The notes under the pieces are model-generated. The model searched no databases. It was given only the letters and a program-made list of their open reading frames with translations, and was not told the origin of the DNA. A stretch of 64,000 bases of DNA from Anaerococcus senegalensis JC48 (lineage in GTDB: Bacteria > Bacillota > Clostridia > Tissierellales > Peptoniphilaceae): assembly GCF_000321005.1 (NCBI RefSeq), contig NZ_HE578907.1:918728-982727 (forward strand), in the 5' to 3' direction. Both the position numbers and the translations under genes were made by a program. Positions within the stretch are counted from its first letter, which is position 1, and every line of letters begins with the position of its first letter. Positions 42,637 to 45,546 of the stretch are shown in pieces.

Positions 42637-42660
42637 AAAATAGGACTTAAATCCTATTTT
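42637..42660 (-). terminator. Terminator overlapping the polymerase stop codon
   Basis: AAAATAGGA (42637-42645) with TCCTATTTT (42652-42660). The stop codon of the Y-family polymerase is inside the right arm, as also seen for the RpiR gene ending at 57362. Confidence 0.75.
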
Positions 42661-43897
42661 ATCTAATCATTCCATTAGGAAGAGTAACTATTTCTGTCCT
42701 ATCTTTTGGAAATTTTTTATTATTTTTTAAAGAGGCAAAAGTTAAAATATCCTTATTGTATTTTTTTCTTATGTTATAAATTGCCTTATCCAAATTTTCT
42801 TTTTTCACAATTTCTTTATAATCTGAAAAAATATCTGTCTGAGTAGGAATTTTATCATCTACAAGATTTATCGCCCTAAGCCCCAAGGCTCTTATTGGAA
42901 AATTCCACTTATATTTTTTCTTAAAAAGATCTATGGCTTTTTCTGCAAGAATTATCGAAGATTGAGTTGGATTACTTATTGGTGATTGAAATTCATATGA
43001 AAGTAAATTATTATCCCTAATAAAAATTTTTATTCCCATGGAAGAAAGATTTGCTTCTCTCAATCTTTTAGAAACATTTAAAGATAAAATTTGAAAAATA
43101 TTATACACTTCTTCATTTGTGTATAAATCTTCAACAAGAGTTGATGAATTTCCTATAGTTTTTATCACTTCCCTATAAGAATAATCTTTAACTGGTCTAT
43201 CATCAAAACCATTTGCATATTGCCACAAATAAAGTCCATTAATTCCCAAAATTCCCTTGACTGTTTTAACATCACTTTTTGCAAGCTCTCTCAAAGTATA
43301 AATTCCTATTCCATTTAATTTTTTCTTTGTAGCATTTCCAATTCCAATTATTGAAGAAATATCTAAAGGCCAAATTATTTTTTTAAAATTTTCTCTTTTT
43401 ATTACACTTGTTGCATCTGGCTTTTTTAAATCTGATCCAAGTTTTGCAAAAACTTTGTTAAAAGAAACTCCAACACTTACAGTAATTCCCAATTCATTTT
43501 TCATTCTTTTTCTAATTTCATTTGCAATTTCTTCTCCACTTCCAAAAAGTTTTAAACTTTCACTCACATCAAGCCAACATTCATCAAGACCAAAAGGCTC
43601 GACCCTATTTGTATAAGAATAATAAATTTTTCTGGCCTTTCTTGAAAATTCTAAATATTTTTCATAATGAGGAGGGACTAAGATTAAATTTGGACATTTT
43701 ATTTTTGCCTGCCAAATTGCCTCTCCTGTTTTTACTCCCATAATTTTTGCCTCTTGACTTTTTGCAAGAATTATCCCGTGCCTATTTTTTGGATCTCCAC
43801 AGACTGCCATTGCCTTATTTTTTAATTTTGGATTTAATTTTGCCTCGATTGATGCATAACAAGAATTCATGTCTGAATGTAGAATTGTCCTTAACAT
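42659..43897 (-). CDS. Y-family DNA polymerase (DinB/UmuC-like, Pol IV type)
   Basis: 412 residues. Translesion polymerase: palm with LHSDMNSCYASIEA (metal Asp 9 and steric-gate region) and VEPFGLDECWLDVS near 103-115 (catalytic Asp-Glu), the finger arm, helix-hairpin-helix-like thumb IIGIGNATKKKLNGIGIYTLRELA and a little-finger domain. It resembles the Firmicutes DinB/UvrX-like group. No obvious beta-clamp QLxLF motif was seen; TDIFSD near 350 is the closest. It diverges from the repressor/protease pair and shares their operator array. Confidence 0.9.
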   Translation of the reverse strand: MLRTILHSDMNSCYASIEAKLNPKLKNKAMAVCGDPKNRHGIILAKSQEAKIMGVKTGEAIWQAKIKCPNLILVPPHYEKYLEFSRKARKIYYSYTNRVEPFGLDECWLDVSESLKLFGSGEEIANEIRKRMKNELGITVSVGVSFNKVFAKLGSDLKKPDATSVIKRENFKKIIWPLDISSIIGIGNATKKKLNGIGIYTLRELAKSDVKTVKGILGINGLYLWQYANGFDDRPVKDYSYREVIKTIGNSSTLVEDLYTNEEVYNIFQILSLNVSKRLREANLSSMGIKIFIRDNNLLSYEFQSPISNPTQSSIILAEKAIDLFKKKYKWNFPIRALGLRAINLVDDKIPTQTDIFSDYKEIVKKENLDKAIYNIRKKYNKDILTFASLKNNKKFPKDRTEIVTLPNGMIR

Positions 43898-43906
43898 TTT
43901 TCCTCC

Positions 43907-43935
43907 TTGAACTTAAATGACTAATAATGTATAAT
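43907..43935 (+). promoter_or_regulatory. Promoter of the XRE repressor operon
   Basis: TTGAAC (43907-43912), 17-bp spacer, TATAAT (43930-43935) on the plus strand. Operator copy A overlaps its -35; copies B-E lie downstream of the start. The leader would be about 97 nt. Confidence 0.55.
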
Positions 43936-44020
43936 TATGACATTAAATGACTTAATTAAATTTTAAGACGCTTAATGTCTTTTGTCAAGACTTTAAACGA
44001 CTATAAGTCTCTAAGTGTCT
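43908..44020. promoter_or_regulatory. Array of five 15-bp imperfect palindromes (operator cluster)
   Basis: Copies: A TGAACTTAAATGACT (43908), B TGACATTAAATGACT (43938), C AGACGCTTAATGTCT (43966), D AGACTTTAAACGACT (43988), E AGTCTCTAAGTGTCT (44006). The consensus is roughly WGWC-N2-YTAA-N2-GWCT with dyad symmetry around TTAA. Centres are 30, 28, 22 and 18 bp apart. C fills the spacer of the polymerase promoter and A the repressor promoter. Spacing near helical turns suggests cooperative repressor binding. No match to the Gram-positive LexA box. Confidence 0.75.
43960..43988 (-). promoter_or_regulatory. Promoter of the Y-family polymerase gene
   Basis: Minus strand TTGACA (43988 to 43983), 17-bp spacer, TAAAAT (43965 to 43960). 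Near-consensus, with operator copy C occupying the spacer and copy B at the start site, so it should be strong but tightly repressed. Confidence 0.7.
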
Positions 44021-44038
44021 TTTTACAAAGGAGAGAAT

Positions 44039-44437
44039 ATGAGTTTTGGAACTAAGTTAAGACAACTTCGTGAAGATAAAAATTTAACTCAAGAAGAATT
44101 AGCAAAACTTGTTGGAGTTTCTTTAAAAACAATTTCTAGATATGAAATGGGTGAATCTAAACCAAGATATAGAAAAGTTTATGATAAACTTGCAGAAATT
44201 TTAGATACTAGCCATGATTACCTTGTAACTGATGAGGATAATTTTATTCTTGATGCTAGAGAAAAATATGGTTATAAGGGAGCAAGAGATGCTAAAGAAA
44301 TGGTTGATGGTGTAATTGGCCTTATGGCTGGTGGAGAAATAGATGAAAAAGATAAAAAAGCAATCCTAGATTCTATCCAAGAGGCCTATTATATAGCAAA
44401 AAGTAAAAATAAGAAATATAATCCCAACAAAGATTAG
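44039..44437 (+). CDS. XRE-family helix-turn-helix repressor
   Basis: 132 residues from the ATG at 44039 (AAAGGAGAG 4-5 bp upstream; an in-frame GTG at 44015 lies inside operator E). HTH at residues 4-60: LRQLREDKNLTQEELAKLVGVSLKTISRYEMGESKPRYRKVYDKLAEIL. The remaining 70 residues are Lys/Glu-rich and helical with a flexible middle (DAKEMVDGV), suited to oligomerisation or cleavage. Directly followed by an ImmA-type peptidase, as in ImmR/ImmA and DdrO/IrrE pairs, and divergent from a DNA polymerase. Confidence 0.88.
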   Translation: MSFGTKLRQLREDKNLTQEELAKLVGVSLKTISRYEMGESKPRYRKVYDKLAEILDTSHDYLVTDEDNFILDAREKYGYKGARDAKEMVDGVIGLMAGGEIDEKDKKAILDSIQEAYYIAKSKNKKYNPNKD

Positions 44438-44444
44438 GTGAATT

Positions 44445-44996
44445 ATGTCTTTTTTGTACGATCAAATTTATGAAGATGTAAAAAAATTAATTAAAAAATA
44501 TGACAGCAGAGATCCTAAGGAAATTTTAATTCAAAGAGGGGTAAATATAATTGCCTTTAAGGAGAATACAAGACTTTTGGGAATGTATAAAATTATTAAA
44601 AGGAATTCTTTTGTTTTTTATAATCCCTTTGTAGATAAAAGAATTCAAAATATGGTTTTTGCCCACGAATTAGGCCATGATATTTATCATAGAGAGATGG
44701 CAAAAAATGAAAATCTAATTGAATATGAACTCTTTGATATAAACAGTGAAATGGAATTGTGCGCAAATATTTTTGCAGCCCACCTTCTTTTAGATGAAAA
44801 ACAATTACTAATGGACATAAAAGAAGGCTATACTTACAACCAACTTGCATCAATTTATAATGTAAATGTAAATCTTATGATTTTTAAATTAAATGAGATG
44901 CATAGGATGGGAATAAATATTAGAAAAGAAGAGGCTGATTCAAGATTTTTTAGAGATATTAACGGTAAGGATATGAGAAACCATGACATATATTGA
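44445..44996 (+). CDS. ImmA/IrrE-type zinc metallopeptidase
   Basis: 183 residues. Zinc motif HELGH near residues 74-78 (VFAHELGHDIYHRE) and the downstream Glu in SEMELCANIFAAHLLL near 105 define ImmA/IrrE (DUF955). Such enzymes cleave an XRE repressor encoded next to them: ImmR in ICEBs1 and phages, DdrO in Deinococcus. Starts 7 bp after the repressor and overlaps mnmM by 14 bp. No integrase or phage gene lies nearby, so this is a chromosomal pair. Confidence 0.9.
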   Translation: MSFLYDQIYEDVKKLIKKYDSRDPKEILIQRGVNIIAFKENTRLLGMYKIIKRNSFVFYNPFVDKRIQNMVFAHELGHDIYHREMAKNENLIEYELFDINSEMELCANIFAAHLLLDEKQLLMDIKEGYTYNQLASIYNVNVNLMIFKLNEMHRMGINIRKEEADSRFFRDINGKDMRNHDIY

Positions 44997-45546
44997 TGAA
45001 ATTATAAATAATCCAGTAAAACTTTCCCATTATATTATAGAAAATAGGACAAAAAATAATATAAAAGCCTGTGATATGACAGCAGGAAATGGCTATGATT
45101 CAAAATTTATATTGGATAAAAAAAATCCAGAAATTTTGTATGCCTTTGATATCCAAGTTTTGGCAAAAAATAATACCATAAAACTTATTGGAAGTCGAAG
45201 CAATTTAAAATTTATTCTCGATAATCATAAGAACATAGATAAATATATAAATGAAAAAATAGACCTTTTTGTTTATAATCTTGGTTTTCTACCAAAAGGC
45301 GATAAATCCATAACTACAGATTATAAATCAGTCATAGAATCTTTAAAATCTTCTTTAAAACTTTTAAACAAAAACGGTCTTATTTTAATAACTTTTTATC
45401 CTGGTCATGATAAAGGAAAAGAAGAGTCCAAATATATTGGTGAATTTTTAAAAAGTTTAAATCAAAAATTATTTCAAGTTATTAAATATGATTTTTTCAA
45501 TCAAATAAACAATCCTCCCTACCTAGTTTCTATAAGAAAGCTATAA
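44983..45546 (+). CDS. mnmM: Class I SAM methyltransferase, YtqB/MnmM-like
   Basis: 187 residues. DMTAGNGYDSKFIL is the SAM loop of the rRNA_methylase-like YtqB family; DLFVYNLGFLPKGDKSITT and TFYPGHDKGKEESKYI are its other blocks. YtqB of Bacillus (MnmM) methylates 5-aminomethyl-2-thiouridine in tRNA. Starts within the peptidase gene, so it is expressed with the repressor/protease operon; a link between tRNA modification and damage control is not established. Confidence 0.8.
   Translation: MTYIDEIINNPVKLSHYIIENRTKNNIKACDMTAGNGYDSKFILDKKNPEILYAFDIQVLAKNNTIKLIGSRSNLKFILDNHKNIDKYINEKIDLFVYNLGFLPKGDKSITTDYKSVIESLKSSLKLLNKNGLILITFYPGHDKGKEESKYIGEFLKSLNQKLFQVIKYDFFNQINNPPYLVSIRKL

Follow-up and report, generated by a model that had tools for sequence, protein, structure and literature searches.

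The 64,000-nucleotide stretch of Anaerococcus senegalensis JC48 DNA analyzed here (the window, C1:918728-982727 within the 1.80-Mb genome) contains adjacent genes for an XRE-family repressor (xre) and an ImmA/IrrE-type M78 metallopeptidase (immA), divergent from the gene for a translesion DNA polymerase. The polymerase gene lies on the reverse strand (42659-43897, 412 amino acids); xre (44039-44437, 132 amino acids), immA (44445-44996, 183 amino acids), and an overlapping mnmM gene follow one another on the forward strand. The polymerase exceeded the Pfam cut-offs for IMS, IMS_HHH, and IMS_C, and its IMS, thumb, and little-finger domains along with the catalytic D and DE (DMN at residue 9 and DE at residue 105) place it in the Y family. 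The top NCBIfam models were PRK03103 and PRK01810, each below its cut-off, and PRK02406 was narrowly above its own. The sequence QTDIF at residue 353 resembles a sliding-clamp motif. A core Y-family polymerase of 347 amino acids is encoded elsewhere, and the window polymerase is an accessory copy, i.e., the second Y-family polymerase of the genome. The repressor possesses an N-terminal helix-turn-helix (HTH; Pfam HTH_3) and probably begins at ATG 44039, which has AAGGAG upstream; GTG 44015 offers a longer alternative reading. Its C-terminal region (GLMAGGE...DKKAILDSIQEAYYIAK) is conserved in the ortholog alignment. The protease matched Pfam Peptidase_M78 and contains HELGH plus ExxAN; HELGH (residues 74-78) and Glu104, at the third-ligand position, were invariant in all 25 aligned orthologs, and the closest protease match was that of A. 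hydrogenalis DSM 7454 (96%). An earlier interpretation made from the letters of this DNA (the sequence-only reading) had described a polymerase divergent from an XRE-M78 pair with HELGH and a downstream Glu ligand, and the Pfam results and motif positions bear this out.

The DNA between the divergent genes carries a cluster of operator-like palindromes. We derived a 17-bp weight matrix from the sequences preceding 30 xre genes of the genus, this locus among them; it corresponded to the Anaerococcus consensus AAGWC-N7-GWCTT and located four strong sites of 17.7 to 21.3 bits, all in 43937-44021, compared to a next best score of 10.3 in the 64-kb window. These forward-strand sites are O2 (ATGACATTAAATGACTT, 43937-43953, 17.7 bits), O3 (AAGACGCTTAATGTCTT, 43965-43981, 21.3 bits), O4 (AAGACTTTAAACGACTA, 43987-44003, 17.8 bits), and O5 (AAGTCTCTAAGTGTCTT, 44005-44021, 20.1 bits). 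A fifth site on the reverse strand, O1 (43906-43922), is weak, with a pattern match at 43908-43922 that has one mismatch and a score below 6.5 bits; the sequence-only reading had five matching repeats linking both promoters, four of which are strong. The predicted polymerase promoter (43960-43988, reverse strand) comprises a -35 TTGACA (43988-43983), a 17-bp spacer that corresponds to O3, and a -10 TAAAAT (43965-43960). The predicted xre-immA promoter (43907-43935, forward strand) has a -35 TTGAAC (43907-43912), a 17-bp spacer, and a -10 TATAAT (43930-43935); O1 covers its -35 and spacer, O2 is close to the predicted xre transcription start, and the -10 is thus flanked by these two sites. The two predicted promoters point toward each other and are therefore likely to interfere with each other's transcription. 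When 200 windows were simulated from a Markov model, any 120-bp stretch contained at most two sites above 6.5 bits, a test that is partly circular because the matrix includes the locus itself; independent tests of the operators come from the radical-SAM promoters described below and from the persistence of the sites in other species. A loose pattern allowing three mismatches showed no excess across the window (151 matches versus 169 expected), and the operator signal is the cluster of strong sites rather than the overall count.

The arrangement is conserved throughout the genus. In a comparison set of 31 Anaerococcus genomes, xre and immA were present and adjacent in every one, and the accessory polymerase was divergent beside the pair in 26, on another contig in one (G017), and unfound in four (G003, G008, G011, and G046). 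All 31 also have the core polymerase, with the copy of G003 (locus L084), a genome that is missing the accessory enzyme too, consisting only of pieces with stops. A script that searched for a polymerase promoter with an operator in its spacer (TTGACA-N17-TATAAT-like) found one in 25 of the 27 polymerase loci and in none of the five xre loci that lack an adjacent polymerase. The two misses were locus L038, where by eye the -10 is TATCAT, and L029, where the -35 is TTGATA and the polymerase looks broken. The relocated polymerase of G017 retains a TTGACA-operator-TATAAT promoter and further operator-like sites, and the xre-immA genes of that genome occupy their usual place, where the polymerase promoter is missing. 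In the four genomes without the accessory polymerase, this promoter is gone or decayed; the decay is visible in L073, and G046 has TTGGCA and a damaged half-site. The natural split in G017 and these cases of loss argue that the operators serve the polymerase. The regulatory link to the polymerase, flagged as conjecture in the sequence-only reading, is now well supported at the sequence level by operators retained throughout the genus, relocation, and promoter loss. Three of the 27 polymerases look broken, being frame-split or carrying an in-frame stop (G023, locus L029; G014, L044; G043, L085), and the repressor and protease reading frames are intact at all three loci. At least nine of the 31 genomes also contain a second XRE-ImmA pair (e.g., L049-L052 and L079-L082), with ∼33 to 36% identity to the window protease and unrelated upstream DNA; in L049 a small membrane-protein-like gene follows the second pair.

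A second set of operator-bearing promoters lies away from the locus. A pattern search and the inspection of 20 loci brought out a gene for a radical S-adenosylmethionine (SAM) protein of family TIGR03916 (putative DNA modification/repair radical SAM), which was above cut-off in 20 of the 31 genomes. The A. senegalensis copy (C3:176628-177836) is followed by a TIGR03915/DUF4130 gene. By use of a matrix trained at the xre locus alone, with no radical-SAM promoters included, an operator of 14.5 to 20.8 bits was found in all 20 orthologous radical-SAM promoters, and none of 172 background upstream regions reached 12 bits (highest, 11.7). An initial background of 202 regions had three at 14 bits or more; those three were in pattern-picked loci, and leaving out these loci gave the 172. 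Loci L003-L022, selected with an earlier pattern, stay in the background and can have had no effect other than to increase it. By eye, the site is just past the -10 in the clade of A. senegalensis and between the likely -35 and -10 in another clade. All four genomes without the accessory polymerase have the radical-SAM operon, and all 11 genomes without the operon (two of them, G004 and G009, being incomplete assemblies at 86 and 82%) have the polymerase; each of the 31 genomes therefore has at least one of the two targets. The operon is also present in all seven genomes in which the polymerase is absent or broken-looking (G003, G008, G011, G046, G014, G023, and G043), for which P = 0.029, compared to 0.15 for the four absences alone, values that assume an independence that fails here. 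The sequence-only reading had suggested seeking further motif copies in the genome, and the unlinked radical-SAM/DUF4130 promoter provides one; its proposal that the polymerase is the controlled gene is supported, with the amendment that the controlled set is larger and includes this operon.

A possible third target, as yet a candidate only, is a ComK-like gene found in 30 of the 31 genomes, mostly without a formal Pfam match. The name is weak because PF06338 (ComK) reached an E value of 1e-3 in just two of the 31 genomes. The upstream 200 bp contained a site of at least 12 bits in 18 of 30 cases, often half-degenerate, and fell below 12 bits in the other 12; these regions were longer than the 150-bp background regions, and some start codons were script-picked. 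In A. senegalensis a sigma-70-like gene precedes the ComK-like gene. In another genome (G006, L199 1214), a 17-bit operator-like site lies ∼130 bp upstream of the sigma-70-like gene, itself upstream of the ComK-like gene. Within the A. senegalensis genome, the pattern RGWCNNTNANNGWCY occurred at 11 places compared to six for the reversed control: three in the array, one in the radical-SAM promoter, one in the ComK-like promoter, four in open reading frames (ORFs; 4.2 to 12.6 bits), one at a gene junction (6.7 bits), and one in intergenic DNA near an integrase-like gene (6.1 bits). The list is incomplete because the pattern misses sites such as O2, and these few matches make the regulon look small. 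A broad pattern with two mismatches gave no excess in the same genome (250/246 matches versus 371/396 for the reversed control). Among the listed matches to ARGACNNTNNNNGTCYT, 20 inspected loci included 17 sites inside ORFs and three that were intergenic; of the latter we kept the radical-SAM promoter and dropped two, one upstream of what by eye is a clpB-like gene in one genome and one that is terminator-like. A RGACANTNARNGWC search in 12 genomes added 20 loci, with 14 sites inside ORFs and six between ORFs, and one of these intergenic sites, in G011, led to the ComK-like gene.

Polymerase linkage extends beyond Anaerococcus. A wider protease search yielded 52 loci, 25 from the genus and 27 from other genera, and a Y-family polymerase adjoins the pair in 18 of these 27, in several gene orders: divergent in 11 (counting a tandem pair in Helcococcus massiliensis), upstream in the same direction in one, and downstream in the same direction in six (Helcococcus sueciensis, Lagierella, Mediannikoviicoccus, Pseudoramibacter, and two Eubacteriaceae). 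Pfam confirmed two of these downstream polymerases, and that of L135 was recognized by eye from its ORF. Two of the nine loci without an adjacent polymerase, L113 and L132, end shortly past immA. Identity to the window polymerase was 22 to 30% for downstream polymerases versus 44 to 59% for divergent ones. An Anaerococcus-type operator occurs upstream of xre in four of 24 non-genus loci examined (L112, L113, L114, and L116, with best scores of 15.4 to 19.4 bits); the other 20 had none, with one reaching 7.4 bits. Polymerase promoter candidates at the 11 divergent loci reached best scores of 9 to 12 of 12, beating shuffles singly in 10 (1.5% or less) and as a set (sum of 113, compared to no more than 94 in any of 200 controls). 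Palindromes in the promoter spacers of these loci were enriched as a set (sum of 59 versus at most 55 in controls) and stood out singly in L120 and L121, both of the ACGCAAT type, and in L123 (4.5%), with L129 and L138 borderline and the others no better than chance; a reading in which most non-genus spacers hold palindromes was rejected by this shuffle control (three of 11 singly). By eye, the recognition helix and the operator appear to vary in parallel: S[LI]K[TS]ISRYE helices go with the AGWC motif, SLRT[IV]SNYET with ACGCAAT-like sites, and S.RTY..YE with GTG-containing sites. Exceptions are L135, which has the helix of the GTGCAAT group and a different palindrome, and L122, which shows no palindrome. 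In Ezakiella coagulans (L131 5602-10132), xre-immA without an adjacent polymerase is followed by two large ORFs that by eye are CRISPR type I cas-like.

The remaining gene of the forward-strand cluster, mnmM (44983-45546), encodes the MnmM tRNA methyltransferase (NCBIfam NF053511, above cut-off) and shares its first 14 bases with the 3' end of immA. It is probably co-transcribed with xre-immA, so that a tRNA-modification gene may be carried by the xre promoter, and we do not think it part of the switch itself. The sequence-only reading spanned 42659..45546; the three switch genes within this interval end at 44996, and the remainder is mnmM.

These features are best accounted for by a repressor-protease switch that is chromosomal, shared by the whole genus, and in charge of a small DNA-repair regulon, with DNA damage as its trigger and M78 cleavage of XRE as its mechanism, a reading to which we assign a probability of about 0.77. 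The XRE protein very probably binds the 17-bp palindromes, and their position inside or beside promoter cores points to repression. It would thereby keep three units off, namely xre-immA, the divergent polymerase, and the unlinked TIGR03916 radical-SAM plus TIGR03915 DUF4130 operon. A stress signal, most probably DNA damage perceived through single-stranded DNA, would lead the M78 protease to cut XRE in its C-terminal region, dimers would be lost, and the regulon would be expressed; fresh repressor from the derepressed xre-immA operon would then shut it off again. The cleavage and signal steps are modeled on ImmA/ImmR (PMC8072749) and on two further relatives, for which single-stranded DNA is reported to stimulate cleavage of DdrO by PprI and of CapH by CapP (PMC10904395).

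Several observations weigh against this proposal. Binding, cleavage, and induction by DNA damage are all steps that we infer, in part by analogy, and 9sf2 was the only solved XRE structure to align with the C-terminal region of the repressor. The genus counts are not independent because the genomes are related, and the polymerase is dispensable, given that three of its 27 copies look broken. Neither recA nor other classical SOS genes were among the pattern hits in the A. senegalensis genome, so a general SOS regulon is unlikely. Among 16 same-order genomes from outside the genus, one matched the protease, weakly, and eight of the 11 divergent non-genus loci showed no spacer palindrome that stood out singly from shuffles. 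Signals other than damage also deserve weight, given the zinc/redox signaling reported for IrrE (PMC7907104). Moreover, canonical LexA, defined by its PF01726 DNA-binding domain, was found in none of the 31 genomes, but A. senegalensis encodes two HTH_3-S24 (LexA-like) proteins (L001 1483-2130 and L002 1318-1968), one of which reached 100 bits against the LexA model, whose cut-off is 111. These two could be the actual damage-responsive regulators, and XRE/ImmA therefore need not be the only one; the suggestion of a LexA-independent switch stands as regards canonical LexA and is qualified by the LexA-like proteins.

The strongest competing explanation, which we consider unlikely, accepts XRE control of the polymerase and radical-SAM genes and holds that the trigger is zinc, redox, oxygen stress, or incoming transforming DNA, with an S24 repressor running the damage response. 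The LexA-like proteins, the operator-like sites at the ComK-like gene, and the redox signaling through zinc described for IrrE (PMC7907104) are consistent with it; on the other side, the two firm targets belong to DNA repair or lesion bypass, and the best-studied relatives are reported to respond to DNA damage. Far less probable is an origin of the pair as the immunity module of a degraded prophage or integrative and conjugative element (ICE) that lies beside dinB accidentally. Pairs of the ImmR/ImmA type are reported to be common on phages and ICEs (PMC8072749, PMC12637031), and 20 phage and 6 plasmid records gave matches, all under 60% identity; no phage or plasmid match reached 60%, no relative was confirmed in viral_contigs, and visual inspection of the ORFs in the 37-52 kb part of the window revealed no integrase, in agreement with the sequence-only reading that no mobile-element gene is nearby. 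We rejected this explanation because of the genus-wide presence of the pair and the absence of a close phage or plasmid match. An accidental neighborhood also fits poorly with mnmM adjoining the pair in 20 of 25 loci, with polymerase promoters that carry operators even after relocation, and with the several polymerase arrangements in other genera, and the possibility of chance adjacency raised by the sequence-only reading falls on the genus-wide synteny and the relocated polymerase with its operators. Least credible of all is an Xre-COG2856 toxin-antitoxin pair with the polymerase as a bystander, for which a toxin-antitoxin-like role proposed for such pairs (PMC2701414) and a weak NCBIfam similarity to the spr1629 antitoxin, far under cut-off, can be cited; the persistence of the pair in all 31 genomes, the operators at repair promoters unlinked to it, and the conserved protease motif speak against it.

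The repressor-protease switch for DNA repair may also be part of something broader. We tentatively suggest, as a view that is more doubtful than the switch itself, that XRE/ImmA could be a LexA-replacing damage switch of Anaerococcus and its relatives that governs lesion bypass, radical-SAM/DUF4130 repair, and competence via the ComK-like regulator, and that was rewired across genera to different Y-family polymerases, with the operator code drifting along with the recognition helix.

The protein pair itself is of a known kind. The ImmR/ImmA systems of ICEBs1, TnSmu1, and prophages likewise have adjacent genes for an XRE repressor and a short M78 protease, in the order xre then immA seen in all 31 genomes, and operators in the divergent promoters of the repressor and a controlled gene, as far as the DNA sequence tells. 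In known cases ImmA-type proteases are reported to inactivate the repressor (PMC8072749, PMC12637031). The Anaerococcus pair differs in being present in every genus genome searched with no mobile element found, in comparisons that covered the genus, phages, plasmids, and viral contigs, and in its targets, which are a translesion polymerase and a repair operon versus excision and conjugation genes for ImmR/ImmA. The DdrO/IrrE (PprI) system of Deinococcus is similar in that a chromosomal XRE and M78 protein act on dispersed repair genes with a palindromic promoter motif, a motif of that kind being present here at the polymerase and the radical-SAM operon. Unlike in that system, immA of Anaerococcus comes directly after xre, a Y-family polymerase belongs to the proposed regulon, and there is no sign of recA as a target in the A. 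senegalensis genome; the DnaE2 mutagenesis cassette of Deinococcus is reported to be under RecA/LexA (PMC8072749). Profile comparisons give no indication of close kinship to IrrE/DdrO. The XRE profile matched the HTH of DdrO and ICEBs1 ImmR chains, with the DdrO chains covering residues 1-62 only, and 9sf2 over residues 5-112; the protease profile matched no IrrE chain at E values up to 1, and its sole Protein Data Bank match was CapP (E = 0.04). The CapH/CapP pair of the cyclic oligonucleotide-based antiphage signaling system (CBASS) is a further repressor-protease pair, with CapP cleavage reported to be stimulated by single-stranded DNA (PMC10904395, PMC10233336); by eye, no CBASS genes were present among the neighbors, which are purine, polymerase, mnmM, and S41 peptidase genes.

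In agreement with the sequence-only reading that no Firmicutes system of this form had been described, the open-access literature yielded no recognizable account of an XRE/M78 pair controlling a Y-family polymerase, nor of a resident Firmicutes switch of the kind proposed here that governs both an accessory Y-family polymerase and a DUF4130/radical-SAM operon, and the word ImmA is missing from the main text of two surveys of Y-family polymerases. The nearest forerunner found is PMC3765255, which reports a DUF955 zincin peptidase in operons with ImuB-C, suggests an SOS-linked proteolytic role, and predicts DUF4130 to be a mutagenesis-related partner of SplB-like radical-SAM proteins; these proposals, as far as its passages on the families go, do not connect a Y-family polymerase with the DUF4130 operon through a regulon of XRE operators. 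Error-prone polymerases are likewise controlled independently of LexA by UmuDAb of Acinetobacter, HdiR of Lactococcus and Streptococcus, and DdiA of Myxococcus. HdiR is a self-cleaving LexA-like repressor, UmuDAb is described as a UmuD-derived repressor, and DdiA is described as an XRE regulator that activates dnaE2 directly or indirectly. The Anaerococcus system, if it operates as proposed, would suggest an alternative bacterial route for reacting to DNA damage; it provides a testable regulon, gives a regulatory setting to the TIGR03916/TIGR03915 repair pair, which has been little studied (a single paper in the open-access literature searched mentions either family or DUF4130), and supplies repressors and promoters that vary naturally from genus to genus. 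A switch best known from mobile elements and Deinococcus would then control mutagenesis as a resident system of anaerobic Firmicutes that lack canonical LexA.

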